In this document: one piece after another, positions 16,970-36,932 of the stretch
Layout: the number at the start of each line of letters is the position of its first letter
How positions within the stretch are numbered: position 1 is the stretch's first letter
From: Rhodococcus gordoniae
Lineage (GTDB): Bacteria > Actinomycetota > Actinomycetes > Mycobacteriales > Mycobacteriaceae
Assembly: GCF_001646655.1 (NCBI RefSeq)
Contig: NZ_LPZN01000003.1
Location: forward strand, 186,001-250,000
DNA length: 64,000 bases
Direction of reading: 5' to 3'
The notes under the pieces: generated by a model
The model's input: only the letters and a program-made list of their open reading frames with translations
The model's database searches: none
Told to the model about the DNA's origin: nothing
Made by a program: the position numbers and the translations under genes

Positions 16970-17827
16970 TCAGCCCGGCATGGTCTCGCCGCCGAGTGGG
17001 GCGAGCACTTCACCGCTGTAGTACGAGGACATCGTCTCCGACGCGAAGAATACGTAGGACGGGGCGATCTCGTCGGGCTGCGCGGCGCGCCCGAAGGGTG
17101 CCTGTTGCCCGAACTCGGACACCTTCTCGGCATCCATGGTCGCCGGGATCAACGGGGTCCACACCGGCCCGGGCGCCACGCAGTTCACCCGGATCCGCCT
17201 GTCCTGCAGTGCCTGCGCGAGCGAATAGGTCAACGCGATCACCGCACCCTTGGTGGCCGAGTAGTCGATGAGCGTCTTGTTGCCACGCAGCCCGTTGACC
17301 GAGGCAGTGTTGATGACGGACCCACCCGGCGTCAGATGCGGCAGCGCCGCCTTCGTCACGTGGAAGAAGCTGTCGATGTTCACGGCGAAGGTGTGCCGCC
17401 ACTGTTCCTCGCTCAACTCGGCGAGGTCGTCGACGGGCTGCTGGGTGCCCACGTTGTTGACGAGAATGTCGAGTCCGTCGAGTTGCTCTACCGTCTCGGC
17501 CACCACCGACCGGCAGTGCTGCGCATCGCCGAGGTCGCCGGCGATGACGTGGCACGTGCGGCCCTCGCGTCGCACGAGGTCGGCGGTGTGCTCGGCGTCG
17601 CGGTGTTCTTCGAGGTACGCGATCGCGACGTCGGCGCCCTCCTTCGCGAAAGCGACCGCGACGGCACGTCCTATGCCGGAGTCGCCGCCCGTGACGAGCG
17701 CCTTGCGACCCGACAGCAATCCGCGTCCGACGTAGCCGCGCATCTCGTCGGCGGGACGCTCGGCCATGTCGTCGGTGTCACCGGGGTAATCGATGGTGTG
17801 GGGTTCTCGTTCGCGATCCTCGCTCAT
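16970..17827 (-). CDS. SDR family oxidoreductase (YhdG/GsiB-neighbour type)
   Basis: A 285-residue short-chain dehydrogenase with a polar N-terminal extension. The Rossmann motif is VTGGDSGIGRAVA (about 47-59), the active-site serine is in NTASVNG, and YSATKGA gives the Tyr and Lys. The subfamily with ending SYYSGEVLAPLGGE is often stress-induced. ATG 17827 is the family start. A GGGTAT element lies at 17837-17842 on this strand but only 9 bp upstream, with no good GTTT, so promoter assignment is weak. It diverges from the gene at 17954. Confidence 0.9.
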   Translation of the reverse strand: MSEDREREPHTIDYPGDTDDMAERPADEMRGYVGRGLLSGRKALVTGGDSGIGRAVAVAFAKEGADVAIAYLEEHRDAEHTADLVRREGRTCHVIAGDLGDAQHCRSVVAETVEQLDGLDILVNNVGTQQPVDDLAELSEEQWRHTFAVNIDSFFHVTKAALPHLTPGGSVINTASVNGLRGNKTLIDYSATKGAVIALTYSLAQALQDRRIRVNCVAPGPVWTPLIPATMDAEKVSEFGQQAPFGRAAQPDEIAPSYVFFASETMSSYYSGEVLAPLGGETMPG

Positions 17828-17918
17828 GGCCGCCGGATACCCACAGACCGTTGCGGTATTCACCGCCGGCATCGTTGTCCGGAGACCGGTATGCGCAGCT
17901 CTCGCCGCCCGCCCGGCC

Positions 17919-17944
17919 GTTTTTGCGAGCCTCCGAGCGGGTAA
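17919..17944 (+). promoter_or_regulatory. SigF-like promoter, near-leaderless
   Basis: GTTT (17919-17922), 16-bp spacer, GGGTAA (17939-17944). The expected start of transcription is about 3 bases before the ATG at 17954. Confidence 0.6.
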
Positions 17945-17953
17945 CCCGGACTC

Positions 17954-18973
17954 ATGGCCCACGAGACCCGGATGTGCGATGTGCACGACGCTCCGCTTCC
18001 CACGCCCCGCGGACCCATCTCCGCCGAGATCGTCGAACGTCTCGGCGGTCCGGTGGACGATGCCCCGTGGAATGTGACGACCGACGGCGCGGATGCCTAC
18101 GGCGAGGACGTCCAACTCGCCCTCGCCGTTCTCTACGAGCTCCACTACCGTGGTTTCGCGGGTGTCGATCCCGCGTGGGAATGGGCACCGGCACTCCTCG
18201 GGGTCCGGGCACGCCTCGAGCGCGTCTTCCTCGATCGGTTGCGTGCCGACGTACCGGCCTCGGACGATCCGCAGAGCGTCCTCGAGGATCTGTGCTGCGA
18301 ACCCGACGACTCGTGGGGTGTCTCCCACGAACTCGCCGCGAACGGCACGTGGGAGATGATGCGCGAGTTCTTCGTCCATCGCTCGATCTACCACCTCAAG
18401 GAGGCGGACCCGCACGCTCTCGCGATCCCCCGGTTGTCCGGTCGCGCGAAGGCCGCGCTGGTCGCCGTCGAGTTCGACGAGTACGGCGGCGGCCGTGCCG
18501 AGCGCATGCATTCGCGGCTGTTCGCCGACCTGTTGCTCGCTGCCGGCCTGAAGGACGACTATCTGGGATATCTCGACGTCGTCCCTGCCGTCACCCTCGC
18601 AACGGTGAACTTCATGTCGTTGTGCGGTCTGCACCGCGCGTACACACCGATGCTGGTCGGCATGTTCGCCGCCGCCGAGATCACCACCGCCCCGAGCGCC
18701 CGGCGCATGGTCGAGGCCCTCGAACGCCTGGATGCGGACGACGCCTGCATCCTGTTCTACTCCGAACACATCGAGGCCGACGCCGTCCACGAGCTCGTCC
18801 TGCGGCACGACGTGGTCGGTTACCTGCTCGAACAGGACCCGGCTCGGGCGCAGGACATCTCGTTCGGCGCGCAGGCCATCGAGTTCCTGGAGGGACGGCT
18901 CGGGAGCCATCTGCTGGGCAGCTGGGCCGCCGGCCGCAGTTCGCTCCTCACGTCGGCCGCGGCGCCGGCCTGA
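17954..18973 (+). CDS. Iron-containing redox enzyme family (haem-oxygenase-like fold)
   Basis: A 339-residue all-helical protein of the haem-oxygenase-like diiron class. Candidate metal ligands are in ELAANGTWEMMREFFVHRSIYHLKEADPH, VAVEFDEYGGGRAERMHSRLF and YSEHIEADAVHELVL, spaced as in the family. Actinobacterial members are often linked to CDGSH iron-sulphur proteins; one is encoded nearby at 21693-21959. The reaction is unknown. It is preceded by a GTTT-N16-GGGTAA promoter and followed by a strong bidirectional hairpin. Confidence 0.82.
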   Translation: MAHETRMCDVHDAPLPTPRGPISAEIVERLGGPVDDAPWNVTTDGADAYGEDVQLALAVLYELHYRGFAGVDPAWEWAPALLGVRARLERVFLDRLRADVPASDDPQSVLEDLCCEPDDSWGVSHELAANGTWEMMREFFVHRSIYHLKEADPHALAIPRLSGRAKAALVAVEFDEYGGGRAERMHSRLFADLLLAAGLKDDYLGYLDVVPAVTLATVNFMSLCGLHRAYTPMLVGMFAAAEITTAPSARRMVEALERLDADDACILFYSEHIEADAVHELVLRHDVVGYLLEQDPARAQDISFGAQAIEFLEGRLGSHLLGSWAAGRSSLLTSAAAPA

Positions 18974-19052: not shown

Positions 19053-19325
19053 TCAGTCGATGAGACCGGGTTCGTGTGTGGGGGTACCACCGGAGCCGCG
19101 GAGGCGGCGTCGACGGAGATTGACAGCGGACATCACGACACCGACGACGATGAGCACGGCCGCGGCGACGGCACCGACGAGCACCCATCCTTCGAAGCCG
19201 TCGCCCGCCGCGTAGAGGACGAGAGCGACGACGGCGATCCCCACGAGGATGCAGGCGTATCCGACCCAACCCGAAGCTCGGGACGCAGTGGTGGGAGCGT
19301 GAGCTCGATTCGATGGTTTCGTCAT
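19053..19325 (-). CDS. Small two-helix membrane protein with GFEGW motif
   Basis: A 90-residue protein with two predicted membrane helices (about 22-41 and 49-68) around GDGFEGWVLVGA, and a basic tail (NLRRRRLRG). It is a paralogue of the 73-residue protein at 15118-15339. The start ATG 19325 follows a GTTT-N16-CGGTAT promoter-like sequence. Function is unknown; membership in the nearby stress block suggests an envelope-stress role (inference). Confidence 0.65.
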   Translation of the reverse strand: MTKPSNRAHAPTTASRASGWVGYACILVGIAVVALVLYAAGDGFEGWVLVGAVAAAVLIVVGVVMSAVNLRRRRLRGSGGTPTHEPGLID

Positions 19326-19333: not shown

Positions 19334-19359
19334 ATACCGCATCCGGCCGTCCGTGAAAC
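19334..19359 (-). promoter_or_regulatory. SigF-like promoter, near-leaderless
   Basis: On the minus strand GTTT (19359-19356), 16-bp spacer, CGGTAT (19339-19334), ending 8 bp before the ATG at 19325. Confidence 0.5.
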
Positions 19360-19405: not shown

Positions 19406-20506
19406 TTACGACGGAATCCGCCGGCCGATCGGTCCGCGCTCGACGAGTGCGGCAAGGCGTTCCCGCGCGCTGCGCGGGGAGAGGACAGGACTGTCCGTGC
19501 CCGTCGCGCTGCGCATTCCGCGTACCGTCTCGGCCCACACATCAGGACCGTCGTGTTTCGGCGACCACCCGAGTTCGTCCCGGGCCCTGGTGCAGTCGAG
19601 CAGGGGGCAGGAGTACGCGAGATCGATCCAGCCGCCCTGCACCGGTTGCAACCGGAGGCGCCAGGTCGCTTCGGCGAGCACCGACAGCCCCCATCGCGGC
19701 ACCGGAACCGTCGGGCAGTCGAACGGAGCGGCGAAATCCCGCGCTCCCACCGGAGTCGGCGCCGCCAGATTGAACGGACCGGGTACCCGACGTTCGAGGG
19801 CTGCGACCAGCGCATCGGCGACATCGTCGGAGTGCACGGCCGGAATGGTGAGACCGTGGTCGATCGGAATCACCGGCAGGTGGTTCGTGATGCCGGCGGG
19901 CACGAACTCGGGCAGCACGTAACGTTCGAGGCCCGAGCCGGAGACCAGTTGCCCGATGAATCCCGGTCGGAAACGCGTGAGGACGGGAACGTTCGTACCC
20001 GTCTCGTAGTCGTCGAGGAACTTCTCCGCCGCGACCTTGTCGACGCTGTACACGCAGGTGGGTACCCCGTCGCGACCCCACGACTCGTCCACTTCCCGGC
20101 CGTACGCACCGCCGGAGTAGACGGCGGCCGAGGACATGTGGACCACGTGCCGTACCCCCGCCTCGGCAGCGGCCGTCAGCACGGCGCGGGTGCCGTCCAC
20201 GGCGACCCGGCGGAGGTAGTCGCGACGATGCGAGGGCTGGAATCCCCACGCGAGGTGGACGACGGCGTCGGCGCCCGCGAAGATCGGCGCCAGCACCCGT
20301 GCGGCGTCGGGATCGGCGAGGTCGACGGCACACCACGTCGCTGCCGCATACGGATCGCGCGCCGGAGGAATCCGGCGCGCGATCGCGACGATATCGAGTT
20401 GTGCGGGATGAGCGGCCAGCCGGCGCAGAAGCGCCGTGCCGACGTTCCCGCTCGCTCCGGTGACGACGATGCGTCGTGGCAGGCCGGTCCGTGAGGTCGA
20501 GGCCAT
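19406..20506 (-). CDS. NAD-dependent epimerase/dehydratase (extended SDR)
   Basis: A 366-residue extended SDR. It has the GxxGxxG cofactor motif in VVTGASGNVGTALLRRLA (about 12-29), VVHLAWGFQP, the serine in HMSSAAVYSG and the YSVDK pair of catalytic Tyr and Lys. UDP-sugar epimerase relatives are common, but the C-terminal substrate part does not reveal the substrate. ATG 20506 is the start with best family fit; 40 bp separate it from the dps stop, so it may be co-transcribed with dps. Confidence 0.85.
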   Translation of the reverse strand: MASTSRTGLPRRIVVTGASGNVGTALLRRLAAHPAQLDIVAIARRIPPARDPYAAATWCAVDLADPDAARVLAPIFAGADAVVHLAWGFQPSHRRDYLRRVAVDGTRAVLTAAAEAGVRHVVHMSSAAVYSGGAYGREVDESWGRDGVPTCVYSVDKVAAEKFLDDYETGTNVPVLTRFRPGFIGQLVSGSGLERYVLPEFVPAGITNHLPVIPIDHGLTIPAVHSDDVADALVAALERRVPGPFNLAAPTPVGARDFAAPFDCPTVPVPRWGLSVLAEATWRLRLQPVQGGWIDLAYSCPLLDCTRARDELGWSPKHDGPDVWAETVRGMRSATGTDSPVLSPRSARERLAALVERGPIGRRIPS

Positions 20507-20546
20507 CGGGATCGTCGGTGCCGTCCGTGTCGTCCGTGTGTTCCGG

Positions 20547-21092
20547 TCAGCGGGCCGAGTCCGCTGCGTCCTTCTCCGTCTGCGCATCCGCGTTCGGAAG
20601 AGCACCGGAGGCGTTCTCCAGGTGTGCGCGGACGAACCACTGGAACTTCTCGAGCTGGCCGGTCTGGCCGATCAGGACGTCCTCGGTGATCGGATCGAGC
20701 TTGCCGACCTCGTCGATGGCCTTGCGGTTGTCGGTGATCAGTCCGTCGTAGACGAGATCGAGGGCGGCGAGGTGCGCCTGCGCGGTGTCGCGGCCGACCG
20801 AGTAGTCGTCCCACGTGCGGTTCTTCTCGATGGCACCGGGCGTGCCCTTGGGGGAACCACCGAGCGCGGCGATCCGCTCGGCGACTTCGTCCGCGTATCC
20901 ACGTACGAGCTCGACCTGCGGGTCGATCATCTCGTGGACGCCGATGAAGTTCGGGCCGACGACGTTCCAGTGGATGTGCTTCAGCGTGAGGTGCAGGTCG
21001 TTGTAGGCACTCAGGCGCTCCTGGAGAATCTGCGCGGTGCGCGAACCGTCGGCATCGCTCAGGCCGGGAACCGTGTAGCTCGACTTCGACAT
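20547..21092 (-). CDS. dps: Dps-family DNA-binding ferritin
   Basis: A 181-residue mini-ferritin that oxidises and stores iron with hydrogen peroxide and shields DNA. The ferroxidase-site segment HIHWNVVGPNFIGVHEMID with its His, His, Asp pattern is at about 39-57, and DDYSVGRDTAQAHL is also typical. The polar tail (about 160-181, NADAQTEKDAADSAR) is longer than in the shortest Dps proteins. A good GGAGGTAG ribosome site lies just before ATG 21092, and a GTTT-N17-GGGTAT promoter further upstream. Confidence 0.93.
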   Translation of the reverse strand: MSKSSYTVPGLSDADGSRTAQILQERLSAYNDLHLTLKHIHWNVVGPNFIGVHEMIDPQVELVRGYADEVAERIAALGGSPKGTPGAIEKNRTWDDYSVGRDTAQAHLAALDLVYDGLITDNRKAIDEVGKLDPITEDVLIGQTGQLEKFQWFVRAHLENASGALPNADAQTEKDAADSAR

Positions 21093-21129: not shown

Positions 21130-21156
21130 ATACCCGGGACACGGGGAGATCCAAAC
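21130..21156 (-). promoter_or_regulatory. SigF-like promoter of dps
   Basis: GTTT (21156-21153), 17-bp spacer, GGGTAT (21135-21130), about 38 bp before the dps start, leaving room for the GGAGGT ribosome site. Confidence 0.65.
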
Positions 21157-21225: not shown

Positions 21226-21251
21226 GTTTGGAAACGGACCAACCCGGTTAT
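21226..21251 (+). promoter_or_regulatory. SigF-like promoter (one mismatch)
   Basis: GTTT (21226-21229), 16-bp spacer, GGTTAT (21246-21251), upstream of the small membrane gene at 21309. Confidence 0.45.
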
Positions 21252-21308
21252 TCGATCGCCGGGCTCCGAGGCTTCCAGGTCTCGGACATGACATCTGAGG
21301 TGGCGACA

Positions 21309-21464
21309 ATGATCATTCTGGGTCTGATTCTGTTGGTGGTGGGGTTCTTCACGGGTATCTCCATCCTCACCACACTCGGAGTGATACTCCTGGTGATCGG
21401 CGTGATCCTTGCGATCCTGGGCGCGACGGGCCGGGCCATCGGCGGACGCGCACACTGGTACTGA
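21309..21464 (+). CDS. DUF6131-like small membrane protein
   Basis: A 51-residue protein that is almost entirely hydrophobic, with two tight helices (about 2-19 and 22-41) and an ATGRAIGGRAHWY tail. This pattern, with the ending GR-x-x-GGR, is that of DUF6131 proteins. ATG 21309 is preferred over ATG 21288 because GAGGTGG sits 6-7 bases upstream. It carries a GTTT-N16-GGTTAT promoter-like element. Function is unknown. Confidence 0.7.
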   Translation: MIILGLILLVVGFFTGISILTTLGVILLVIGVILAILGATGRAIGGRAHWY

Positions 21465-21692: not shown

Positions 21693-21959
21693 TCAGTGAT
21701 GTTCGGTATCGGTGCGCGCAGCTGCCGTCTTCGGTTTCCGGAGGGCGCGATGACTGGTGTCGCACAGGGGGTACAGGGCGCTGCGGTGACAGCGGCATAC
21801 GGCCACCACGAAGCGGTCCGACACCGTCTCGGCGCCGTCGTCGGCGACGATCCGGACCGGACCCTCCACGAGGGTCGGACCACCCCTCACCTGCCGCACC
21901 ACCCGTGCTTCACATTCACCGTCCGCAGTGAGCTGTGTGATCTTCGGTGTACCACTCAC
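21693..21959 (-). CDS. CDGSH-type iron-sulphur protein
   Basis: An 88-residue protein with a single CDGSH motif, CRCHRSALYPLCDTSH (C-x-C-x2-S-x3-P-x-C-D-x2-H), which holds a redox-active 2Fe-2S cluster by three Cys and one His. GTG 21959 is chosen: it lies 4 bp after the stop of the HemK2 gene, so the two are co-transcribed. The iron-containing redox enzyme 3 kb away is a typical family companion. Partner and reaction are unknown. Confidence 0.85.
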   Translation of the reverse strand: MSGTPKITQLTADGECEARVVRQVRGGPTLVEGPVRIVADDGAETVSDRFVVAVCRCHRSALYPLCDTSHRALRKPKTAAARTDTEHH

Positions 21960-21963: not shown

Positions 21964-22650
21964 TCAACCCCTCGTGCGGGGACGGTCGGCACGCACGACC
22001 ACCACTTCTTCGGTCAGAGCCCCGGGTTCCGCCAGTTGTGTCGAATACAGATATCCCGCGCGGTTGCGCAGAACCGGCCCGAAGGGGATCCGGTTGCGGG
22101 CCACGACGGACGCCTCGAGATCCGCATCCCGCAGACGGGACAGCGTCGCATCCACACCGGTGAACTCCGAGTGCACGATCAACGCGAATCCGCCGGGAGC
22201 GAGCAGCGAGGGGAGACTGTCGCACAACGGATCGAGAACGCAGCGTCCGTCGGCGCCGGCATCCCAGCGGGCGTCACGGTTCTGTCCCTCACAGGGAACG
22301 TACGGCGGGTTCGACAGCACGACATCGAACGGACCGTGGAGCAACGCGTCGTCCAGGCTTCCCTGCCGGGCACGGATCGGCAGCCGGCGCGACCACGCGT
22401 TGAGGCGTGCGCTGAGCACCGCGCGTGGGTCGATATCGAAGGCCGTCACCGAGGAAGCGCCGAGCATGGCAGCATTCACCGCCAGAAATCCTGTCCCGGT
22501 ACAGAAATCGAGTACGTTCGCACCTTCGGCACCGCCTGCGTCCGCAAGCGCGCCGGCCAGCAGATACGAATCCTCCTGAGGGCGGTACACCCCTGGAAGA
22601 CGCCATACCCGCGGCGAATCCGATCCGTCCAGCGCCAGGGAAGCTGTCAC
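21964..22650 (-). CDS. HemK2/MTQ2-type protein methyltransferase
   Basis: A 228-residue methyltransferase. SAM motif I is VLDFCTGTGFLAVNAA (about 46-61), followed by TAFDIDPRAV, and the catalytic NPPY tetrapeptide (VVLSNPPYVPCEG, about 110) marks N5-glutamine or related N-methylation. PrmC/HemK homologues modify release factors; this short HemK2/MTQ2 form, linked to CDGSH, probably has another target. It is first gene of a two-gene unit under a perfect GTTT-N16-GGGTAT promoter. Confidence 0.85.
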   Translation of the reverse strand: MTASLALDGSDSPRVWRLPGVYRPQEDSYLLAGALADAGGAEGANVLDFCTGTGFLAVNAAMLGASSVTAFDIDPRAVLSARLNAWSRRLPIRARQGSLDDALLHGPFDVVLSNPPYVPCEGQNRDARWDAGADGRCVLDPLCDSLPSLLAPGGFALIVHSEFTGVDATLSRLRDADLEASVVARNRIPFGPVLRNRAGYLYSTQLAEPGALTEEVVVVRADRPRTRG

Positions 22651-22732: not shown

Positions 22733-22758
22733 ATACCCGTGTGACTTCCGTGTGAAAC
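22733..22758 (-). promoter_or_regulatory. SigF-like promoter of the HemK2-CDGSH unit
   Basis: GTTT (22758-22755), 16-bp spacer, GGGTAT (22738-22733), about 80 bp before the ATG at 22650. It matches the mycobacterial SigF consensus exactly. Confidence 0.7.
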
Positions 22759-22788: not shown

Positions 22789-24381
22789 TCACGAGAACAG
22801 CATCCGGCGAGCAGCATTTCGGACACGACGCGTCACCGGAGCAGTGCGTTTCCCGTCCGCGAGCGCGGCATGCGCGGCGTTCCAGCCACCCATCCCGTGG
22901 ACTCCGCCGCCGGGATGCGCGGCCGCACCGGCGAGATACACACCGTCGACCGGAGTTCGCGGTCCGCCGAATCCGGGAGTGGGCCGAAGGAACAACTGCT
23001 GGTAGACCTGCGCGGTTCCACCGTTGACGGCACCGCCGACGAGATTCGCGTCGGCTGCTTCGAGGTCCCCGGGCCGCTGGACGTGTCGCCCGACCACACG
23101 TGCTCCGAATCCCGGTGCGTAGGCCTCGAGTTGCGCGTCGACACGCTCGGCGAGGCGGTCGGCTGACGCGTCGTCCGTGACGCCGCGCGGCAGATGTGTG
23201 TAGGCCCAGCAGCTTTCGGTGCCCTCCGGCGACCGCGTGGCATCGGTCGTGGTCATCTGCCCGAACAACAGGAAAGGCGATTCGGGGACAACGCCGGTGG
23301 ACAGATCGGCCGACCACCTGATCATCGCGTTCGTGTCGGCGCCGACGTGCACGGTGCCGGCTCCGCTCAGCGAGGGCGAACGCCACGGCACACGGCCGTC
23401 GAGGGCATAGTTCACCTTCACCACCGGGGTGTCCCATTCGAACTTCCGGAGGTCGTCGAGCACGCGCGAACCGACGGCGGCGGCCGGGAGGAGACGCGTG
23501 TACAGGGCCGGAGCCGAGACGTCGGCAAGGACGGCACGTCGCACCTTCACCCGGTCGCCGCCCGCGGTGCGCACGGCGGACACCTTCCCGCCCTGCACCT
23601 CGATGCCCACCACAGGCGAAGTGCACCGCACCTCCGCACCTGCCGAGGTGCCGCGCCGGACCAATGCGTCGGTGAGCGCCCCCGCGCCACCGACCGGCGC
23701 GGGGAAGCCGACGTCCTGCGCGAGCATCGTGAGCATGTACCCCATGACGCCGCTTCCGGGCGCTTCGGGCGGGGTGTCGGCGTGCATCGCATTGCCCAGG
23801 AGCAACAGCCGCGCCGCCGAGCCACCGAACAGTTCGGCGGACATCCGGGTGACGGGCAACGCGAGCATGCGTGCGTAGCGCAGCAGGTCCCCCGTCTTCA
23901 TGGTCCGCATCAGGTCGACGGAGCCCCGGACGGGTGGAAAAGGCCCGAGGAGCAGTTCGAGCAGTGGGCCGCGCACCTGCTTCCACTGTTCGAACAGGGC
24001 CAGCCACGCCGCACCGTCACCGACGCAGCGACGTTCGAGGTCCGCTGCCGTGTCCGCCGGATCCGGCGAGACGACGATCGCGTCCTCGTCGTGAGGGCCG
24101 AGCGGATGACCGAATGCCTTGGGCGATCGCGCCCACCGGAGGCCGTGCGACTCCAGATCGAGGGCCCGGAAGGCAGGTGAGGTCACACCGAGGGGATAGA
24201 ACGCACTGAACAGATCGGCGCGGAATCCGGGATGGAGCTCGGCGCTGCGCACCGCTCCGCCGGGTTCGGGTTGCTCTTCGAGCACGAGGACGTCCCATCC
24301 CGCATCGGCGAGCACAGCGGCGGCCGTCAGGCCGTTCTGCCCGGCACCGATGACGACCGCATCCACCGTCGTGTCGCTCAT
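22789..24381 (-). CDS. FAD-dependent oxidoreductase, phytoene-desaturase-like
   Basis: A 530-residue flavoprotein of the COG1233 type. The FAD-binding Rossmann motif is VVIGAGQNGLTAAAVLADAG (about 9-28), followed by PGGAVRSAE, and the C-terminal FAD motif is GVYLAGAAAHPGGGVHGMGG. The substrate is unknown: relatives act on carotenoids or other lipids, and no carotenoid gene is nearby. ATG 24381 overlaps the upstream SRPBCC stop by ATGA, suggesting a lipid-binding partner. Confidence 0.85.
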   Translation of the reverse strand: MSDTTVDAVVIGAGQNGLTAAAVLADAGWDVLVLEEQPEPGGAVRSAELHPGFRADLFSAFYPLGVTSPAFRALDLESHGLRWARSPKAFGHPLGPHDEDAIVVSPDPADTAADLERRCVGDGAAWLALFEQWKQVRGPLLELLLGPFPPVRGSVDLMRTMKTGDLLRYARMLALPVTRMSAELFGGSAARLLLLGNAMHADTPPEAPGSGVMGYMLTMLAQDVGFPAPVGGAGALTDALVRRGTSAGAEVRCTSPVVGIEVQGGKVSAVRTAGGDRVKVRRAVLADVSAPALYTRLLPAAAVGSRVLDDLRKFEWDTPVVKVNYALDGRVPWRSPSLSGAGTVHVGADTNAMIRWSADLSTGVVPESPFLLFGQMTTTDATRSPEGTESCWAYTHLPRGVTDDASADRLAERVDAQLEAYAPGFGARVVGRHVQRPGDLEAADANLVGGAVNGGTAQVYQQLFLRPTPGFGGPRTPVDGVYLAGAAAHPGGGVHGMGGWNAAHAALADGKRTAPVTRRVRNAARRMLFS

Positions 24382-24821
24382 TCGGTGGCGCCTTCGGCGA
24401 GCAGCACCAGTCGCCGCAGGCATTCCTGGTTCCGTGGCAACACCAGTTCCTCCTGCACACGATCGGGGACGTGTGCGTACGGTCCTTCGACGACGTGTTC
24501 GGCCATCGAGATGCGGGTGCCGCCGTCCCGAGTGGGTTCGAGGGAGATCGCGATCTCGGCCTTACCGAACAGCCAGGCGCGTGCCCGCAGCACGAGTTCC
24601 CGCTCGGGCACCATCGCGCAGACCTCGGTGTAGTCGTCGAGCAGGAACGGCCACAGGCCCACCGAATGGTGGATCCGGGTTTCCGGTCGGGGCCAGGCAG
24701 GGTCGACTGCTCGGATGCGGGACGCACCCACCACCCATCCCGCGTACCGCCAGCCGTCCGCGAGGATCTCCCAGACCTTCGACGGTGTCACCGGTGCCTC
24801 GATCGTCGCGATCCTGGCCAT
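24378..24821 (-). CDS. SRPBCC family protein
   Basis: A 147-residue protein with the [11 protein letters not shown] fold pattern: MARIATIEAPVTPSKVWEILADGWRYAGW, then alternating strands and a C-terminal helix. These proteins bind hydrophobic ligands. It is translationally coupled (ATGA) to the FAD oxidoreductase, so it may deliver or receive its substrate (inference). It is transcribed from a GTGT-N16-GGGTAT element divergent from the PfkB promoter. Confidence 0.8.
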   Translation of the reverse strand: MARIATIEAPVTPSKVWEILADGWRYAGWVVGASRIRAVDPAWPRPETRIHHSVGLWPFLLDDYTEVCAMVPERELVLRARAWLFGKAEIAISLEPTRDGGTRISMAEHVVEGPYAHVPDRVQEELVLPRNQECLRRLVLLAEGATE

Positions 24822-24867: not shown

Positions 24868-24893
24868 ATACCCCGCTACCGCAGGTGTCACAC
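24868..24893 (-). promoter_or_regulatory. SigF-like promoter of the SRPBCC-FAD unit
   Basis: GTGT (24893-24890), 16-bp spacer, GGGTAT (24873-24868). Its -35 lies 8 bp from that of the divergent promoter at 24902. Confidence 0.5.
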
Positions 24894-24901: not shown

Positions 24902-24927
24902 GTGTCATCGCTGCTCGGAGGGGGTAT
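24902..24927 (+). promoter_or_regulatory. SigF-like promoter of the PfkB-SurE unit, near-leaderless
   Basis: GTGT (24902-24905), 16-bp spacer, GGGTAT (24922-24927), ending 10 bp before the ATG at 24938. Confidence 0.5.
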
Positions 24928-27725: not shown

Positions 27726-27750
27726 GCTACCTCCAAGATGGGTGCGGCTG

Positions 27751-27756
27751 ATACCC
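27751..27756 (-). promoter_or_regulatory. GGGTAT -10-like element before the esterase
   Basis: GGGTAT on the minus strand 26-31 bp before GTG 27725, but the -35 position reads GACG, so the match to the GTTT-type promoters is only half. Confidence 0.3.
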
Positions 27757-27948
27757 CCACACTCACCGGCATCGTCGATCTCCGAAGACAGCACTGGAAC
27801 CTCCTGTGGATCACCCCACGAAACTCGTCGATTTCTTTCGCCTTACTCAGCGTGGTACTGCGGTTTACCCACAGTTGTCCGGGATCGAAACACCCGACCG
27901 GGGCGACGAACCGGGAACCCGGTGGGCGACCGTACTCGGGTGAGGCCC

Positions 27949-27974
27949 GTTTACCTGCCCGGGCCGGGAGGTAA
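27949..27974 (+). promoter_or_regulatory. SigF-like promoter, near-leaderless
   Basis: GTTT (27949-27952), 16-bp spacer, AGGTAA (27969-27974), ending 9 bp before ATG 27984. GGGAGG here could instead act as a ribosome site. Confidence 0.4.
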
Positions 27975-29542: not shown

Positions 29543-29568
29543 GTTTGGCTCCCCGACCGGCCGGGTAT
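29543..29568 (+). promoter_or_regulatory. SigF-like promoter of the PfpI/DJ-1 gene
   Basis: GTTT (29543-29546), 16-bp spacer, GGGTAT (29563-29568), 30 bp before the ATG at 29599; AGAAAGGA gives a ribosome site. Exact consensus match. Confidence 0.72.
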
Positions 29569-29598: not shown

Positions 29599-30165
29599 AT
29601 GAATTCCGCCGATGGGGCACGACTGTCCGGACTGACCGTCGCAATTCTCGCGACGAACGGAGTCGAGGAGGTCGAGCTCGTCGAGCCACGCCAGGCACTC
29701 GAGAGCGAGGGCGCCACCGTCCGGCTCGTCTCTATCGAGCAGGGCGAGATCCAGTCCATGGAGAAGGACGTCCACGCCGCGGGGAAGTACACCGTCGATC
29801 GCCTCGTCTCCGAGGTGTCGCCCGGCGACTTCGACGGTCTGGTCCTTCCCGGGGGCACCACGAATCCCGACCACCTGCGGCAGGACGACAGTGCCGTCTC
29901 CTTCGTGCGGGAATTCGTCCTGTCCGGGCGTCCCGTCGGCGTGATCTGTCACGGACCGTGGACGCTCGTCGAGGCCGACGTGGTGCGCGACCGCACGCTC
30001 ACGTCGTATCCGAGCGTGCGGACCGACATCCGCAACGCCGGCGGAAACGTCGTCGATCAGGAGGTGGTCGTCGATCGCAACCTCGTGTCGAGCCGCAATC
30101 CGGGCGACCTGCCGGCCTTCTGCAAGGCTCTGATCGATCTCTTCGCCGCGCGCCGCGCAGGCTGA
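29599..30165 (+). CDS. DJ-1/PfpI family protein
   Basis: A 188-residue DJ-1/PfpI-fold protein. The nucleophile elbow cysteine is in [14 protein letters not shown] (about 114-127) and the fold-typical [17 protein letters not shown] is at the N-terminus. Members are deglycases, chaperones or proteases; the specific activity is not predicted. ATG 29599 is preceded by an AGAAAGGA ribosome site and a perfect GTTT-N16-GGGTAT promoter, so it is a strong stress-regulon candidate. Confidence 0.9.
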
Positions 30166-30523: not shown

Positions 30524-31966
30524 ATGAACGAGCCGCACTCCGACGATTTCGTCGTGGTCGCCAATCGCTTGCCGGTCGATCTGGAGACGCCTGCCGATGG
30601 CAGCCCACCGGTGTGGCGGCGCAGCCCCGGTGGTCTGGTGACCGCGATGGAGACGGTCCTCCGTTCCAGCGGTGGCGCGTGGGTCGGATGGCCCGGCACC
30701 CCCGACGTAGCCCTCGAGCCCTTCGAGGAGGACGGGCTCTCCCTGTATCCGGTCGAGCTGTCCGCCCAGGAAGTGGAAGAGTACTACGAGGGCTTCTCGA
30801 ACGACACCCTGTGGCCTCTCTACCACGATGCACTCATCCCCCCGACTTTCGATCGCCGCTGGTGGCGCACGTATCGCGACGTCAACAAGCGGTTCGCCGA
30901 GGCCGCGGCCCGCGCTGCGGCCCCCGGGGCGACGGTGTGGGTGCACGACTACCAGCTCCAGCTCGTCCCCAGGATGCTGCGCGACCTCCGGCCCGACCTC
31001 ACCATCGGGTTCTTCCTCCACATCCCCTTCCCTCCCACCGAACTCTTCCTGCAGTTGCCGTGGCGCACGGCGATCGTCGACGGTTTGCTCGGCGCCGATC
31101 TGGTCGGCTTCCACCTTCCCGGTGGAGCACAGAACTTCGTCTATCTCGCGAACCGGCTCTTCGGGCTCCCGGCACCGCGCGGAACCTCGTCCGGCGGGAC
31201 GATCGATCTCGGCGACCGGAAGGTTCGTGTCGGCGCCTACCCGATCTCCATCGATTCTGCTCACCTCCGGGATCGCTCGCGCGAGAAGGCCATCCGCGAT
31301 CGTGCTGCGGAGATCCGCAGGGATCTGGGCGATCCGGAGGTCATGCTGCTCGGCGTCGACCGTCTCGACTACACCAAGGGGATCGACGTCCGCCTCGAAG
31401 CACTGCACGAACTCTTCGCCGAAGGCACCCTCGATCCAGAGAAGGTCGTGATGGTGCAGTTGGCCACTCCGAGTCGTGAACGGTTGACGGCGTACGCGCA
31501 ACTCCGCGACCAGGTGGAGCGCGAAGTGGGCCGGATCAACGGCGAGTTCGCACGTCTCGGATCACCGGTGGTCCACTATCTCCACTCCTCGGTCGACCGC
31601 GACGAGTTGCTCGCGATGTACACCGGCGCCGACGTCATGCTCGTCACTCCTCTGCGCGACGGCATGAACCTCGTCGCGAAAGAGTTCATCGCCTGCCACG
31701 GCGACGGTAGCGGCTCGTTGGTCCTCAGCGAATTCGCCGGAGCCGCAGCGGAACTGCGTCGCGCCCTCCTCGTCAATCCGCACGACCTCGAAGGGGTCAA
31801 GCGCGCGATCGTGGAGGCGATCGAGGAGGATCCCGCCGAACGCATGCGGCGCATGAAGACCATGCACGCCCACGTGATGGAGCACGACGTCGCCCGATGG
31901 TCGCGCACTTTCCTCGAGGATCTCCAGGCCGCCTCGGGTGCCCGCGTCGGCGTCTCCGGCAGTTGA
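30524..31966 (+). CDS. otsA: Alpha,alpha-trehalose-phosphate synthase (GT20)
   Basis: Joins UDP- or ADP-glucose with glucose-6-phosphate to trehalose-6-phosphate, precursor of the compatible solute and of mycolate carriers. It has 480 residues. GT20 motifs are [39 protein letters not shown] and [19 protein letters not shown] 30524 follows AAGGCGGGA. No trehalose-6-phosphate phosphatase (otsB) is in the window. It ends at a hairpin. Confidence 0.95.
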
Positions 31967-31970
31967 TCGC

Positions 31971-32037: not shown

Positions 32038-32235
32038 CTACCGACTCGGCTGCGGCACCTCGCACTCGACCTCGGGGTTGACGCCCGCATAGTTGAGCGG
32101 CCCCGCCACGACCGTGACGGCCACCGTCGCAAGACTGCTGCAGTTCTGGTCCGAGTCGCCGAAGTAGCCGCGCTGACCGGCCGCCACCGCGCCGATGATC
32201 AACCAGACCAGGACCACGAGACTCAACAATCGCAC
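32038..32235 (-). CDS. Small membrane/exported protein
   Basis: A 65-residue protein with an N-terminal hydrophobic helix (LLSLVVLVWLIIGAVAA, about 3-19) followed by a polar domain with two cysteines (QNCSSL and EVECEV) that could form a disulphide outside the membrane. It may be a signal peptide or an anchor. No named family is recognised. A perfect GTTT-N16-GGGTAT promoter lies 50-75 bp upstream. Confidence 0.62.
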   Translation of the reverse strand: MRLLSLVVLVWLIIGAVAAGQRGYFGDSDQNCSSLATVAVTVVAGPLNYAGVNPEVECEVPQPSR

Positions 32236-32284: not shown

Positions 32285-32310
32285 ATACCCGCGACGGAAA
32301 CCGAACAAAC
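32285..32310 (-). promoter_or_regulatory. SigF-like promoter of the 65-residue protein
   Basis: GTTT (32310-32307), 16-bp spacer, GGGTAT (32290-32285). Exact consensus match. Confidence 0.65.
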
Positions 32311-32516: not shown

Positions 32517-32873
32517 ATGACCCAGGATGTGGAGAAACGCTGGAACGACCCCCGCACGGCCCGTAAGGCGACGGGTTACGCGGTCGGCGTGATCGCAGTG
32601 GCACTCGCGCTCATGGGAGTCGCCATCCTCTGGGGTACGAATTCCGGGCAGGACTGCACGGACGCGGCCTTCGCGGTCTGCACCGATCCCGCCCGCCGGA
32701 TCCTGGTCTTCGGCCCCACCCTCGTCCTGCTGCTCGGCGGACTCGGCGCACTGCTGACGGCCTACCGCACCTGGAAGCGTGGAGGGCGCTGGCCGATCTG
32801 GCAGGGCGCGGGATGGGCGCTTCTGGTCCTGATGGTCGCCTACGCCACCATCTCCGTCCGCGCCGTCATCTGA
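32517..32873 (+). CDS. Three-helix membrane protein
   Basis: A 118-residue membrane protein with three predicted helices (about 20-42, 62-84 and 96-116). Between the first two is a short outer loop with two cysteines (DCTDAAFAVCTD). GAGGAGAG precedes ATG 32517 by 7 bases. No named domain is recognised. Confidence 0.65.
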   Translation: MTQDVEKRWNDPRTARKATGYAVGVIAVALALMGVAILWGTNSGQDCTDAAFAVCTDPARRILVFGPTLVLLLGGLGALLTAYRTWKRGGRWPIWQGAGWALLVLMVAYATISVRAVI

Positions 32874-32972: not shown

Positions 32973-32998
32973 GTTTATCCCCCTTCCCGCACGGGAAT
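32973..32998 (+). promoter_or_regulatory. SigF-like promoter, leaderless
   Basis: GTTT (32973-32976), 16-bp spacer, GGGAAT (32993-32998, one mismatch). Transcription would start at or beside the tandem GTG codons at 33005 and 33008. Confidence 0.45.
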
Positions 32999-33007
32999 AC
33001 CGCTGTG

Positions 33008-34258
33008 GTGAAGATCGCGATGGTTGCGGGACAAGTGAATCCCCTGCTCGGTCATGGTGCGCCCGCGAGCGCGCCGCCCGGAGGACTGCATGTCCATCTC
33101 GACGGGCTGTCCTCTGCCCTCTCCGCGGCCGGCCACGAGGTCGTGGTGTACACGCGCCGCGAGGACAGCACCGGTCCCGACCGGATCTCGGCCCCCGGCG
33201 GATACGAGGTGGTGCAGATACCGGCAGGGCCGCTGTCCCCGTTGCATCCTGACGAAACAGCGTCCGCCATGGGTGAATTCGGAACCTTCCTGGATCGGGA
33301 ATGGCGCGTGCGGCCGCCGGACATCACGCACGCCCACTACTGGCTGTCGGGTCTGGCCACCCAGCTCGCCACCCGGTCACTGGGTATTCCCACGGTCCAG
33401 ACGTTCCACTCGCTGGGCACGGTCGAACAACGGATCCGCGAGAAGACTCCGACGGATACACATTCACGGGATCGAATCCGCTTGGAGCGACTCATCGCCC
33501 GAGGCGCGACACGCATGATCGCGACAAGCTCGGACGAAGTCTTCGAACTGGCACGCATGGGGCTTCCGCGCACGCGCACCACGGTGGTCCCGAGCGGAGT
33601 GGACACCGCCCACTACTGCACCGCCGCCGCTCCCGACACCGCCCGGACCCGCCGACATCGGCTCGTCGCCGCAGGCCCTCTCGAACCGGGTTCCGGATTC
33701 GACACCGTCATCGAAGCTCTGGCCGGTGTTCCCGATACCGAACTGATCATCGCCGCAGATCCCGCTCCCGCCCACGTGTCCCGCCGATCCGACGAGCAGG
33801 AGAAGTCCCGTCTCACGAAGCTCGCGCGTGCGCGCGGAGTGCACGGACGCGTTCGGATCCGGCGCGACGTCGGCCGGGACGAGATGCCCGCACTGCTCCG
33901 CTCCGCCGATGCCGTGGTGTCCACCCCCTGGCACGACCCGTCCGGGATGCTCGCGCTGCAGGCGATGGCATGTGGTCGTCCGGTGATCGCGTCGGCCTCC
34001 GGAGGAATGCTCGATACGGTTCTCGACGACGCCACGGGCATCCTTGTGCCCACCCGCTCCCCCGAGGCCGTCGCTGCGGCCGCGCGCCGACTCCTCACCG
34101 ATGCCACGACGCGCGCAACCTTCGGGATCGCCGGACGCGACCGCGTACTGGCCCGATACACCTGGGATCGTGTGGCCGAGGACACCCTTCGAGCCTACGA
34201 GCGGTGCGTACCTGTCCGGCGCACTGCACACCGGACCGCACGGACCGGTGTGCAGTAA
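33008..34258 (+). CDS. GT4-family glycosyltransferase
   Basis: A 416-residue retaining glycosyltransferase with a GT-B fold, like MshA and other GT4 enzymes. Visible are VHLDGLSSALSAAGHEVVVYTRR near the N-terminus, ATRMIATSSDEVFELARMGL, VVPSGVDTAHY, and the nucleotide-sugar site WHDPSGMLALQAMACGRPVIASASGGMLDTV (the E-x7-E equivalent is partly replaced: D/S at the first position). The acceptor is not known. GTG 33008 or 33005 is the start; no ribosome site is visible, consistent with a leaderless mRNA. It ends in a terminator that overlaps the stop. Confidence 0.85.
   Translation: MKIAMVAGQVNPLLGHGAPASAPPGGLHVHLDGLSSALSAAGHEVVVYTRREDSTGPDRISAPGGYEVVQIPAGPLSPLHPDETASAMGEFGTFLDREWRVRPPDITHAHYWLSGLATQLATRSLGIPTVQTFHSLGTVEQRIREKTPTDTHSRDRIRLERLIARGATRMIATSSDEVFELARMGLPRTRTTVVPSGVDTAHYCTAAAPDTARTRRHRLVAAGPLEPGSGFDTVIEALAGVPDTELIIAADPAPAHVSRRSDEQEKSRLTKLARARGVHGRVRIRRDVGRDEMPALLRSADAVVSTPWHDPSGMLALQAMACGRPVIASASGGMLDTVLDDATGILVPTRSPEAVAAAARRLLTDATTRATFGIAGRDRVLARYTWDRVAEDTLRAYERCVPVRRTAHRTARTGVQ
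34223..34256. terminator. Hairpin overlapping the GT4 stop codon
   Basis: 12-bp stem ACTGCACACCGG (34223-34234) with 34245-34256, 10-base loop; the stop TAA ends at 34258. Confidence 0.7.
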
Positions 34259-34282: not shown

Positions 34283-34789
34283 TCAGCGACGGTGGTCCTG
34301 ATCGTTCCGGTGGGCGCCCGCACGGCCGGCGTCGTCGATCCGGCCCTCACCTGTGGGCACAGCGTTCGGGACCTGGCCCGACGAACCGGCCGTGCGCGGC
34401 GTCGATTCCGCGCGGTGGTCGGCGGACCCGGCACGCTCTGTCGAACGGGGATCCAGCTCTTCCGCCCGGCGACGACGTTCGTCGAGTTCGGCCCGGGCGG
34501 CGTCAGCCGTGTGCCGCTCCTCTTCGGACCGGGCACGCAACCGCTCCGCTTCGGCCGCCTTCGCTTCGGCTTCCGCCGCGGCGCGACGAGCTTCCGCTTC
34601 GGTACGTTCGGCCGACGCGGCTCGCTGCTCGACTCCCGGCCTGTTCTCCTCGACGCTGCGACGCAGCCGCTCGGCTTCGGCGCGCCGACGCTCGGCCCGC
34701 CGGTTGCGGAGCGTCCACACCAGCACCGCCAGCAGCACCAACGCGACGACCACCGCTATCACCAGCAGAATCCAGTCGTTCGTGCTCAT
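34283..34789 (-). CDS. Membrane-anchored coiled-coil protein
   Basis: A 168-residue protein with one N-terminal membrane helix (about 6-27: WILLVIAVVVALVLLAVLVWT) followed by an about 90-residue Glu/Arg/Ala-rich segment predicted to form a coiled coil and an unstructured tail. No enzymatic motif is visible. ATG 34789 follows GAGGAGGTCGAG. Homologues of this shape, in many actinobacteria, are unassigned. A GTTT-N16-GGGAAC element lies upstream. Confidence 0.65.
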   Translation of the reverse strand: MSTNDWILLVIAVVVALVLLAVLVWTLRNRRAERRRAEAERLRRSVEENRPGVEQRAASAERTEAEARRAAAEAEAKAAEAERLRARSEEERHTADAARAELDERRRRAEELDPRSTERAGSADHRAESTPRTAGSSGQVPNAVPTGEGRIDDAGRAGAHRNDQDHRR

Positions 34790-34815: not shown

Positions 34816-34841
34816 GTTCCCCGGGGTCGAAGCGACGAAAC
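34816..34841 (-). promoter_or_regulatory. SigF-like promoter (one mismatch)
   Basis: GTTT (34841-34838), 16-bp spacer, GGGAAC (34821-34816), before the ATG at 34789. Confidence 0.42.
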
Positions 34842-34977: not shown

Positions 34978-35421
34978 TTACGTCACAGGAGCGACCGCAG
35001 CGAGCGCTGCTTCGCGTGTCCTACAGGCCTTGGCCGCGAGGTCCGCGTCGGCGATCCGGAGAAGCCGTTCCACGGGCCGCCCGCTCAGGAGAACCCAGCG
35101 GACGTTCAGAGCACGAGCGCGTTCGTCGAGATCGTCGAAGACCGACAGCCCGGCCGCACCGAAGAACTCGACGGCCGCGAGGTCCACGACCATACGGACC
35201 GCCTCTTCGAGCTGTCGATGCGTGAATGCGTGAAGAGCGTGTGCATTACGGATGTCGATCTCGCCTCGCACACCGACCCAGACCAGATCCGGTTCGACCC
35301 GCTGAGCACTGAACTCCGCCCCGACTACCCGCTCTGCAGGAATATCGGACCTGATCGGCCGAGCCGACCATCCGGATGTGACGGAATCTACTTGTGCGGC
35401 AATTCGCTGAGGAACTGTCAT
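34978..35421 (-). CDS. STAS-domain anti-anti-sigma-like protein without the phospho-serine
   Basis: A 147-residue STAS protein, the class that binds anti-sigma kinases and frees sigma. The fold is clear: VWVGVRGEIDIRNAHAL then VDLAAVEFFGAAGLSVFDDL. At the place of the usual D-S-(S/T)-G, whose serine the kinase phosphorylates, it reads G-A-A-G, so the normal switch is missing. ATG 35421 follows GGGAAG; 35436 is possible but would lack a good ribosome site. It is divergent from the kinase and sigma genes. Confidence 0.82.
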   Translation of the reverse strand: MTVPQRIAAQVDSVTSGWSARPIRSDIPAERVVGAEFSAQRVEPDLVWVGVRGEIDIRNAHALHAFTHRQLEEAVRMVVDLAAVEFFGAAGLSVFDDLDERARALNVRWVLLSGRPVERLLRIADADLAAKACRTREAALAAVAPVT

Positions 35422-35733
35422 AGCACTTCCCAACATCGAAAATTTCAGGAAGCGCGACCGACGAGACAGGCACAGCCTGTGATCGATCGGAACCCTCCCG
35501 TTACGGGTGGCGCTTCCGGGTTCTCGGCTGTGTGCTCAACCTTCTTTCCCGACAGTAGTCCACCAACCGTCGGCGCTCAACAGGTCGATCGTGCATTTCG
35601 GGCGGATCGCCGGCACCTGCGCAGGTCACGGCAGATGGATTGAATTCGCGGTATCTGGGTAATCTCTCCGACGACGACCAGACAGACAGACACGACCCGC
35701 TCACCCCATCCCCGTACTGGAGACACAAGGCTC
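35422..35733. other. 312-bp divergent region between STAS and anti-sigma genes
   Basis: I see no gene here. It should hold promoters for both directions. A GGGTAA (35657-35662) and GGTATC near 35650 on the plus strand lie about 75 bp before the anti-sigma start but lack a GTTT 16 bp away. AGACACAAGG precedes ATG 35734 as ribosome-site region. Confidence 0.4.
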
Positions 35734-36153
35734 ATGGCAAAATCCGCGTCGATCGAATCGGCACGCGACCACACTCCCCCGGTAGTCGAATTGCGAGTGG
35801 AAGCCCACCCCGATCAGCTCGCGGTCCTCCGCGCGGTAGCCGCCGCGATCGCGCTGCAGCACGACTTCGACCTCGATACCGTGGCGGACGTGAAGCTCGC
35901 CGTCGACGAAGCGGCCACGCGGCTGATCATGGGCGCGCCCGAGGACGCGATCCTGGCGTGCTCCTTCCGGGCGGCCCTCCCGCTACTGCACATCAGCCTG
36001 TCGGCACCGACGGAGGACGCCTCCGCTATCGGACAGCCGCGCTCCTTCGGATGGCACGTGCTCAATTCGTTGACCGAGTCCATCTCGGTGACCAGCAACG
36101 ATTCGCGCGCCACGATCGACATGTCCATCGCCGAAGGCAGCGCCGATCGGTGA
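35734..36153 (+). CDS. rsbW: Anti-sigma factor, UsfX/RsbW type
   Basis: A 139-residue GHKL-fold anti-sigma factor. It shares with M. tuberculosis UsfX (Rv3287c) the N-box-like ADVKLAVDEAATRLI and SFGWHVLNSLTESI segments. The glycine-rich ATP-binding loops are short, as in UsfX. It should bind the SigF-type sigma factor whose GTG start overlaps this stop (GTGA at 36150-36153), the classic anti-sigma/sigma arrangement. Confidence 0.88.
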   Translation: MAKSASIESARDHTPPVVELRVEAHPDQLAVLRAVAAAIALQHDFDLDTVADVKLAVDEAATRLIMGAPEDAILACSFRAALPLLHISLSAPTEDASAIGQPRSFGWHVLNSLTESISVTSNDSRATIDMSIAEGSADR

Positions 36154-36932
36154 CGCGCAACACGGGTAGGTCGAGCGACGAATACGCCGACGTCACCGAA
36201 ACTCTCAGAACACTCCTTGCGCTCGACGAGGACGACCCCGGTCGTATCCGCATTCGCGACGAAGTGGTCGCCCGGTGCCTTCCGCTCGCCGAGCACATCG
36301 CCCGTCGTTTCGACGGCCGCGGTGAGGCGTTCGAAGACCTCTTGCAGGTCGCGCGTCTGGGCCTGGTCAACGCGGTCGACCGCTTCGACCCCGAACGAGG
36401 TTCGGATTTCGTCTCTTTCGCGGTACCCACGATCATGGGCGAGGTGCGTCGGCACTTTCGTGATGCCGGCTGGGCCGTTCGTGTGCCCAGGCGGATGAAG
36501 GAACTGCACCTGTCCCTGAGCAAGGCCACATCCGAGCTCTCCCAGCAGCTCGGCCGGGCGCCCACCGCCTCCGAACTCGCCGAGGAACTCGGCATCGAGC
36601 AGGAGGAGGTGCTGCAGGGTCTCGTCGCCGGCAACGCCTATCAGACGGTGTCGGTCGACCGGTCGTCCCCGTCCGGCGACGACGGGCTCACCCTCGCCGA
36701 CACGCTGGGCGACTACGACGCCGCACTCGACGAGGTCGAGAACCACGAAGCGCTGAGACCACTGCTCGAGGCCCTTCCTGCAAGGGAGCGCACGGTCGTC
36801 CTGCTCCGCTTCTTCGGCAACATGACGCAGACGCAGATCGCCGAGCGAGTGGGTGTCTCGCAGATGCACGTGTCGCGTCTGCTCACGAAGACCCTCGCGC
36901 AGCTGCGCGAGCAACTCGGCGACAACTTCTGA
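36150..36932 (+). CDS. sigF: SigF/SigB-type RNA polymerase sigma factor
   Basis: A 260-residue group 3 sigma-70 factor of the SigB/SigF branch. Region 2 (DLLQVARLGLVNAVDRFDPERGSDFVSFAVPTIMGEVRRHFRD, about 66-110) and region 4 (LPARERTVVLLRFFGNMTQTQIAERVGVSQMHVSRLL) are complete. Mycobacterial SigF recognises GTTT-N15/17-GGGTAT. GTG 36150 gives the family length. It is translated from inside the anti-sigma stop and terminates at a strong hairpin. Many genes upstream in this window carry such promoters. Confidence 0.9.
   Translation: MTRNTGRSSDEYADVTETLRTLLALDEDDPGRIRIRDEVVARCLPLAEHIARRFDGRGEAFEDLLQVARLGLVNAVDRFDPERGSDFVSFAVPTIMGEVRRHFRDAGWAVRVPRRMKELHLSLSKATSELSQQLGRAPTASELAEELGIEQEEVLQGLVAGNAYQTVSVDRSSPSGDDGLTLADTLGDYDAALDEVENHEALRPLLEALPARERTVVLLRFFGNMTQTQIAERVGVSQMHVSRLLTKTLAQLREQLGDNF

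Follow-up and report, generated by a model that had tools for sequence, protein, structure and literature searches.

A probable SigF general-stress regulon island running from an SDR gene to rsbW-sigF in Rhodococcus gordoniae

Does a SigF-type sigma factor gene lie next to the genes that it controls? The question is raised by a 64,000-nucleotide stretch of the genome of the soil bacterium Rhodococcus gordoniae (assembly GCF_001646655.1, contig NZ_LPZN01000003.1, positions 186,001 to 250,000), referred to here as the window, in which a block of about 20 kb (16970-36932; 0.4% of the 4.82 Mb genome) ends in sigF. A model's reading of the letters alone (the sequence-only reading) had proposed that the sigma factor lies beside its own probable regulon. 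Family matches support a SigF-type gene with an adjoining anti-sigma gene (Table 1): rsbW overlaps sigF by 4 nt, and its product matches solved anti-SigF RsbW proteins (PDB 8ih8, E 2.3e-15), binding and inhibition of SigF being its predicted role. The SigF protein shares 98% identity with its counterpart in Rhodococcus sp. CH91, 93% with that in R. sp. 105337 and 92% with that in R. coprophilus. No other gene in the genome is close to it: the two next-best matches have 37% and 32% identity. The block is very probably a SigF general-stress regulon island that extends from a short-chain dehydrogenase/reductase (SDR) gene to rsbW-sigF, its SigF dependence being deduced from the promoter-like sites described below.

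At all 12 positions where the sequence-only reading had placed a SigF-type element the motif is present, the minus-strand sites beginning 3 bp further on (19359, 21156, 22758, 24893, 32310 and 34841). Site coordinates run from the -35-like GTTT/GTGT to the -10-like GGGTAT-type hexamer, with the spacer length given after N and the strand as - or +. The four sites that had been called exact are GTTT/GGGTAT at 21156- (N17), 22758-, 29543+ and 32310-, and two more are exact with GTGT (24893- and 24902+); the weakest of the twelve, 27949+ and 34841-, carry two changes each. The strong site 27891- and the weak sites 17863- and 35638+ bring the total to 15, and 13 sites lie at most two changes from GTTT/GTGT-GGGTAT. 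This motif equals the published SigF consensus (PMC7390352; PMC4694148). Each of the 15 sites is followed on its own strand, after 6-82 nt, by a start codon, some of these starts being of our own choosing; for six of them the distance is 6-10 nt, which would give messages with no leader or almost none. Taken singly, 17863-, 35638+ and 34841- could be chance matches.

The motif is strongly enriched over shuffled sequence, a comparison that the sequence-only reading had suggested. The exact literature consensus GTTT-N15-17-GGGTA occurs six times in the block and not once in the 17 kb to its left or the 27 kb to its right (44 kb in all), and 60 second-order Markov shuffles gave a mean of 0.12 and a maximum of 2. 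With one mismatch allowed the counts are 19 in the block, 3 on the left and 2 on the right (shuffle mean 2.8, maximum 7). A matrix built from 13 sites (the 12 listed and 27891-) finds 15 matches in the block at a threshold of 13.5 bits, namely those 13 plus a pair within genes (19974-, 21332+), whereas 20 shuffles averaged 0.65 (at most 2) and the left and right flanks have 0 and 1. Genome-wide counts were pattern searches controlled by the reversed pattern; GTTT-N16-GGGTAT with at most one mismatch gave 70 matches versus 6 for the reversed pattern, and nine of the 70 lie inside the block, where 0.29 would be expected (P 2e-11). Three of the seven exact N16 matches in the genome are inside the block, and one of those outside it (C79) is found elsewhere in several nearly identical copies per genome, which we read as the behaviour of something like an rRNA gene. 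Degenerate variants with up to two mismatches in the -10 element are found 57 times over the whole window, coding DNA included; those in coding DNA (e.g. 57478- and 19974-) were rejected as promoters and taken as chance.

The sites are conserved in six close relatives (L084-L089). In an ungapped comparison covering 10 motif positions at each of 13 sites, in which the spacer could vary by one, 21 of 760 cells had changed (2.8%), compared with 12-31% when the same mask was slid by 8-20 bases (ten shifted controls); two of the 78 site-relative pairs could not be aligned, and two misaligned pairs supply 12 of the 21 changes. An earlier gapped count (9/770, or 1.2%, versus 22.6% in the spacer) was replaced by the ungapped figure, being too favourable: at the DJ-1 site, changes had been masked by the gaps. 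By the gapped count the weak sites 17863- and 35638+ had changed in 6/60 and 2/56 cells, respectively.

Related islands are present across the genus. We scanned 14-20 kb upstream of sigF in 16 Rhodococcus relatives (L084-L099) and found 2-16 sites in each, 15 of the 16 having 5-16, while shuffled means were 0.4-1.2 in the six relatives so tested. Downstream of sigF a single site in all was seen over loci L001-L010 and L015 (two flanks were short), fewer than in loci of other genera. R. maanshanensis (L030) has 7 sites downstream of sigF and 4 upstream, and its island may extend to the other side of the gene. An SDR gene on the left and rsbW-sigF on the right were both seen in nine of the 16 relatives (L084, L087, L089, L090, L092, L093, L096-L098). 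Beyond the SDR border no site occurs in 5.5-19 kb in five genomes (L090, L093, L096-L098), and L091, whose SDR gave no orthologue match, has one site in 22 kb beyond the left edge. L090, L091 and L093 have islands of about 18-22 kb; those of L096-L098 span about 30-34 kb and also differ in inner order, the methyltransferase gene following the UsfY-like gene and dps lying beside the DJ-1 gene. We had at first seen almost no cargo shared between the window and L097/L098 ('turnover') in 20 kb upstream of sigF; since 40 kb shows most of the window genes, further out, 'reshuffling and expansion' is the better description.

The sites mostly travel with their genes. Over ten more distantly related Rhodococcus genomes, represented by 11 stretches (site within 200 bp; rsbW and sigF left out), a site precedes 56 of 77 orthologues of genes that have one in the window and 3 of 52 orthologues of genes that do not. 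Two of these three are the epimerase gene, which has no own site in the window and has moved in L092 and L093, where it has one. All seven orthologues of the SDR gene have a site (GTGT-N15-GGGTAT in five, GTGT-N15-GGGTAA in L090, GTTT-N16-CGGTAC in L095x), the 21226+ site is kept by 8/8 orthologues, and 3/3 orthologues at 34841- have GTTT-N16-GGGTAT. The site upstream of rsbW-sigF, which may serve SigF autoregulation, reaches a score of 13.5 or more in four of ten stretches from relatives and reads GATT-N16-GGGTAT in L096-L098. The -35 elements of the divergent promoters of the SDR gene and the haem-oxygenase-like (HO) gene lie 6-17 bp apart in L090-L093 and L096-L098 and 56 bp apart in the window.

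Searches of 14 genomes found Dps in 13, and likewise the methyltransferase and DJ-1; all three are missing from G038 (the genome of L099). The dps gene lies on a contig other than that of sigF in G023, G028 and G033, and in R. wratislaviensis (G062) it adjoins a second sigF gene. Around this second rsbW-sigF pair (L189, G062 contig 25:84500-104499) lie homologues of dps, OtsA, CDGSH and HO. The methyltransferase match at L153 (G034 contig 1:191889-192572) contains one stop codon, possibly an artefact at the end of the match. Beyond Rhodococcus, L118 has HO, CDGSH, methyltransferase and DJ-1 genes near sigF, and L100-L104, from another genus, keep the SDR gene there, in both cases with sites; the remaining loci of other genera (L105-L117, L119) have few of these genes and 0-8 sites.

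Genes were called from six-frame open reading frames (ORFs), codon scores, third-position substitutions relative to related genomes and family searches, giving 23 genes in the block with rsbW and sigF included, and 86% of the block is coding. The Dps, DJ-1, OtsA, CDGSH, Rieske flavoprotein and SurE functions that the sequence-only reading had named are each backed by a Pfam match. The start of the epimerase gene is our choice. The SDR message is probably leaderless, judging by the distance from site to start. No SigF-type site was found for OtsA itself or upstream of the STAS gene, and scans of the window for Rfam families (gathering threshold) and tRNAs gave no match.

Table 1. Candidate SigF-type promoters and predicted genes of the block (window coordinates)
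Feature	Coordinates	Strand	Basis or remark
Weak SigF-type promoter (SDR)	17837..17863	-	GTGA-N17-GGGTAT; not in the sequence-only reading
SigF-type promoter (HO)	17919..17944	+	GTTT-N16-GGGTAA; pattern match and footprint
SigF-type promoter (UsfY-like gene)	19334..19359	-	GTTT-N16-CGGTAT; pattern match and footprint
SigF-type promoter (dps)	21130..21156	-	GTTT-N17-GGGTAT; pattern match and footprint
SigF-type promoter (before DUF6131 gene)	21226..21251	+	GTTT-N16-GGTTAT; pattern match and footprint
SigF-type promoter	22733..22758	-	GTTT-N16-GGGTAT; pattern match and footprint
SigF-type promoter, divergent pair	24868..24893	-	GTGT-N16-GGGTAT; pattern match and footprint
SigF-type promoter, divergent pair	24902..24927	+	GTGT-N16-GGGTAT; pattern match and footprint
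SigF-type promoter (alpha/beta hydrolase)	27865..27891	-	GTTT-N17-GGGTAA; strong, not in the sequence-only reading
SigF-type promoter (Rieske flavoprotein)	27949..27974	+	GTTT-N16-AGGTAA; pattern match and footprint
SigF-type promoter (DJ-1)	29543..29568	+	GTTT-N16-GGGTAT; GGGTAG or GGGTAA in 5/6 close relatives
SigF-type promoter	32285..32310	-	GTTT-N16-GGGTAT; pattern match and footprint
SigF-type promoter (GT4)	32973..32998	+	GTTT-N16-GGGAAT; pattern match and footprint
SigF-type promoter	34816..34841	-	GTTT-N16-GGGAAC; pattern match and footprint
Weak SigF-type promoter (rsbW-sigF)	35638..35662	+	GATT-N15-GGGTAA; not in the sequence-only reading
SDR oxidoreductase, left border of island	16970..17827	-	PF13561 195 bits; ATG 9 nt past -10 of 17863-
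Haem-oxygenase-like iron redox enzyme (HO)	17954..18973	+	PF14518 185 bits; ATG 9 nt past -10
Small membrane protein, weakly UsfY-like	19053..19325	-	NF041247 E 1.3e-4, 22.7 bits, under cut-off 100
NAD-dependent epimerase, downstream of dps	19406..20605	-	PF01370 85 bits; true start uncertain, ~20503
Dps	20547..21092	-	PF00210 (Ferritin family) 83.5 bits in enclosing ORF
DUF6131 small membrane protein	21288..21464	+	PF19626 31 bits
CDGSH iron-sulfur protein	21693..21959	-	PF09360 57 bits
HemK2/MTQ2-like methyltransferase	21964..22650	-	TIGR00537 106 bits, cut-off 87
FAD oxidoreductase, CrtI/CrtO type	22789..24381	-	matches below NCBIfam cut-offs
SRPBCC (polyketide cyclase-like) protein	24378..24821	-	PF10604 27.8 bits, cut-off 27.4
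PfkB-family sugar kinase	24938..25894	+	PF00294 125 bits; ATG 10 nt past -10
SurE	25891..26682	+	PF01975 143 bits in enclosing ORF
Alpha/beta hydrolase	26739..27794	-	PF07859 154 bits
FAD oxidoreductase with Rieske domain	27984..29510	+	PF01266, PF00355; ATG 9 nt past -10
DJ-1/PfpI protein	29599..30165	+	PF01965 174 bits in enclosing ORF
OtsA, trehalose-6-phosphate synthase	30524..31966	+	PF00982 483 bits in enclosing ORF
Small protein, uncharacterised	32038..32235	-	68% of substitutions at third codon positions
Membrane protein, uncharacterised	32517..32873	+	present in all 16 Rhodococcus relatives' stretches
GT4 glycosyltransferase	33005..34258	+	PF13579, PF00534 in enclosing ORF; GTG 6 nt past -10
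Membrane protein, probably coiled coil (by eye)	34283..34789	-	no Pfam family above cut-off
STAS-domain anti-sigma antagonist	34978..35421	-	PF01740 39 bits
Anti-sigma factor RsbW/UsfX gene	35734..36153	+	PF13581 (HATPase_c_2) 36.7 bits (cut-off 27.4)
SigF sigma factor gene	36150..36932	+	NF005514 431 bits (cut-off 372); TIGR02980 310 bits (cut-off 234)

The SigB general stress regulon of Bacillus subtilis is controlled by partner switching and read from GTTT/GGGTAT-type promoters; it is dispersed, with rsb genes around sigB. For the Rhodococcus island we propose that RsbW would keep SigF inactive until, on a presumed stress signal, an antagonist (the STAS protein of the island, others encoded elsewhere, or both) releases it. 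RNA polymerase carrying SigF would then transcribe some 13-15 units, probably including operons, from GTTT/GTGT-N16(17)-GGGTAT-like promoters; in six cases the start codon is near enough for the message to be probably leaderless. Products of these units would include Dps, CDGSH, the haem-oxygenase-like enzyme, DJ-1, SurE, the Rieske flavoprotein, small membrane proteins and others, and OtsA may be expressed by read-through from the DJ-1 gene. Many Rhodococcus have an island that extends from SDR to rsbW-sigF, its inner genes having been reordered, gained or lost, mostly each with a SigF site of its own.

The STAS protein has features that bear on its predicted role as antagonist. Counted on an alignment with solved RsfB, it has Ala at the position of RsfB Ser63 and, in the window, Asn at that of Thr32; this Ala is shared by the window and L084-L091, and L092-L099 have Ser or Thr. 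In M. smegmatis the RsfB mutation S63A strongly raises expression of a SigF-dependent gene and T32A abolishes it (PMC7693655). Because Ala replaces the phosphorylatable Ser63, the island antagonist may be blind to phosphorylation.

The sequence-only reading had also held that a contiguous block is unusual, mycobacterial SigF regulons being scattered. This claim to novelty fails, because MSMEG_1766-1804 of M. smegmatis is a published, largely SigF-dependent cluster that ends in sigF. In a sigF mutant 28 of these 39 locus numbers were down, 27 in both growth phases and MSMEG_1803 in stationary phase only (PMC4694148); a stress response gene cluster MSMEG_1750-1804 is named in PMC5445863, which describes it as highly similar to a stress-gene cluster of M. 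tuberculosis, and 33 genes of msmeg_1766-1806 were up in another mutant (PMC11303327). Like the Rhodococcus block, this cluster is contiguous, ends in rsbW-sigF and has the same promoter consensus (PMC4694148; PMC5445863; PMC11303327), and in M. smegmatis, too, the sites of several SigF-dependent genes lie close to the start codon, at 8-11 nt (PMC4694148). It also holds a dehydrogenase/reductase-type oxidoreductase, a methylase, UsfY proteins and an RsbW homologue. In contrast, compared by descriptions only, the available rows for 1766-1804 name no Dps, OtsA or DJ-1 and many are hypothetical; the starvation-induced DNA protecting protein is MSMEG_6467, outside this range (PMC4694148). In M. 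tuberculosis usfX and sigF are likewise an anti-sigma and sigma pair cotranscribed from a SigF-dependent promoter (PMC7693655). Within Rhodococcus, dps1, sigF1 and sigF3 of R. jostii RHA1 are cited as regulated on desiccation (PMC8317367), and changes in SigF and Dps proteins under light have been reported in R. erythropolis (PMC9416670); the available parts of these two papers do not describe an island. No description of a Rhodococcus sigF island was found in the literature as judged by titles and abstract openings, in a search whose coverage largely excludes subscription papers. That the island type is already known from M. smegmatis, and that the Rhodococcus island is a further example with an interesting evolutionary side, is well supported.

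The motif also suggests a link of SigF to genes outside the block. In nine further Rhodococcus genomes the motif outnumbers the reversed motif by 544 to 145 (3.75-fold), in 22 genomes that all have a SigF locus (partly overlapping the nine) by 1438 to 533, and in three SigF-bearing genomes of other genera, outside the nine-genome tally and the no-match tally given below, by 43 to 19, 99 to 41 and 92 to 61. In R. gordoniae 61 of the 70 near matches lie outside the block, and part of the 70 are surely chance. When 20 further genome matches were inspected with their neighbours, some were found to precede plausible genes, including a second SDR (L131), a glycosyltransferase (L130) and small proteins (L125-L128), suggesting that the regulon is wider than the block; others were not (e.g. 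L122, L123, L136). By eye, the proteins behind the SigF-type sites at G000 contig 51:341163 (L130, the glycosyltransferase) and contig 37:80996 (L128, a small membrane protein) resemble proteins behind sites in the L097 island. The proposal that sigF lies beside its own probable regulon is thus well founded, because a SigF-type gene, an adjoining anti-sigma gene and conserved SigF-type promoters occur together, with the amendment that the regulon is not confined to the block.

Several points weigh against this reading. The six relatives of the footprint share ancestry, so their cells are not independent. The matrix was trained on the window's own sites and its scores there are partly circular, the counts from the literature pattern and from relative genomes being less so. 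The starts of the SDR, UsfY-like, PfkB and GT4 genes were chosen by us inside longer ORFs with the sites in view. In the window the promoters of the SDR gene and of rsbW-sigF themselves are weak. Four window sites have no site-bearing orthologue beyond the close clade (27891- 0/0, 27949+ 0/4, 32310- 0/4, 32973+ 0/2), and L099 has just two sites upstream of sigF. Both borders are seen in only nine of 16 relatives: the stretches of L085, L086 and L088 end short of the SDR gene, L091 gave no orthologue match for it, L094 and L099 show none, and in L095 it is on another contig. Finally, the motif exceeds its reversal 1.4-fold (840 vs 593) even in 18 members of the family that gave no match to SigF at E 1e-60; these may hold divergent SigF genes, and the motif excess is therefore support for SigF use and not proof of it.

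Chance or compositional similarity in AT-richer intergenic stretches might account for the motif, as the degenerate matches in coding DNA and the recurrence of C79, one of the seven exact matches, would suggest; for the block as a whole this is refuted by the shuffles, the flanking DNA, the reversed pattern and the conservation, and we regard it as highly improbable. The sites might also be real promoters used mainly by one or more other sigma factors (SigB- or ECF-type), so that the neighbourhood of sigF would not be its regulon. Cross-recognition of promoters by SigB homologues is reported in Streptomyces coelicolor (PMC8346170) and two other sigma genes are present in the R. gordoniae genome, but only one gene there is close to SigF, the motif is that of SigF, and sites cluster beside sigF in 15/16 Rhodococcus relatives, making this explanation improbable.

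A different alternative accepts the SigF regulon island and concerns its origin: the cluster may be an old association kept by inertia, the proximity of sigF having no function. The linkage of SDR and sigF in another genus (L100-L104) and the HO, CDGSH, methyltransferase and DJ-1 genes near sigF in L118 favour it, whereas inner order and content change strongly while the sites, and in many genomes the borders, persist, which inertia alone does not readily predict; we give it somewhat less than an even chance. It tells against a bolder form of the island reading, in which the sigF neighbourhood is a self-regulated capture zone that genes enter between SDR and rsbW-sigF, bringing or gaining a SigF promoter, since selection favours genes that lie close to where a scarce sigma factor is made or are inherited with it. 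Instances would be the moved epimerase with its own site (L092, L093) and the L097-island lookalikes at L128 and L130 (by eye), and we hold this bolder form to be rather unlikely.

For the biology of Rhodococcus, the SigF regulon island provides a delimited list of about 20 candidate targets of SigF with predicted promoters, among them dps, DJ-1, surE, CDGSH and several unnamed small proteins. The islands of related species form a natural series for tracing the retention of promoters and the shuffling of genes, and it becomes possible to test why certain sigma factors have part of their regulon next to them.

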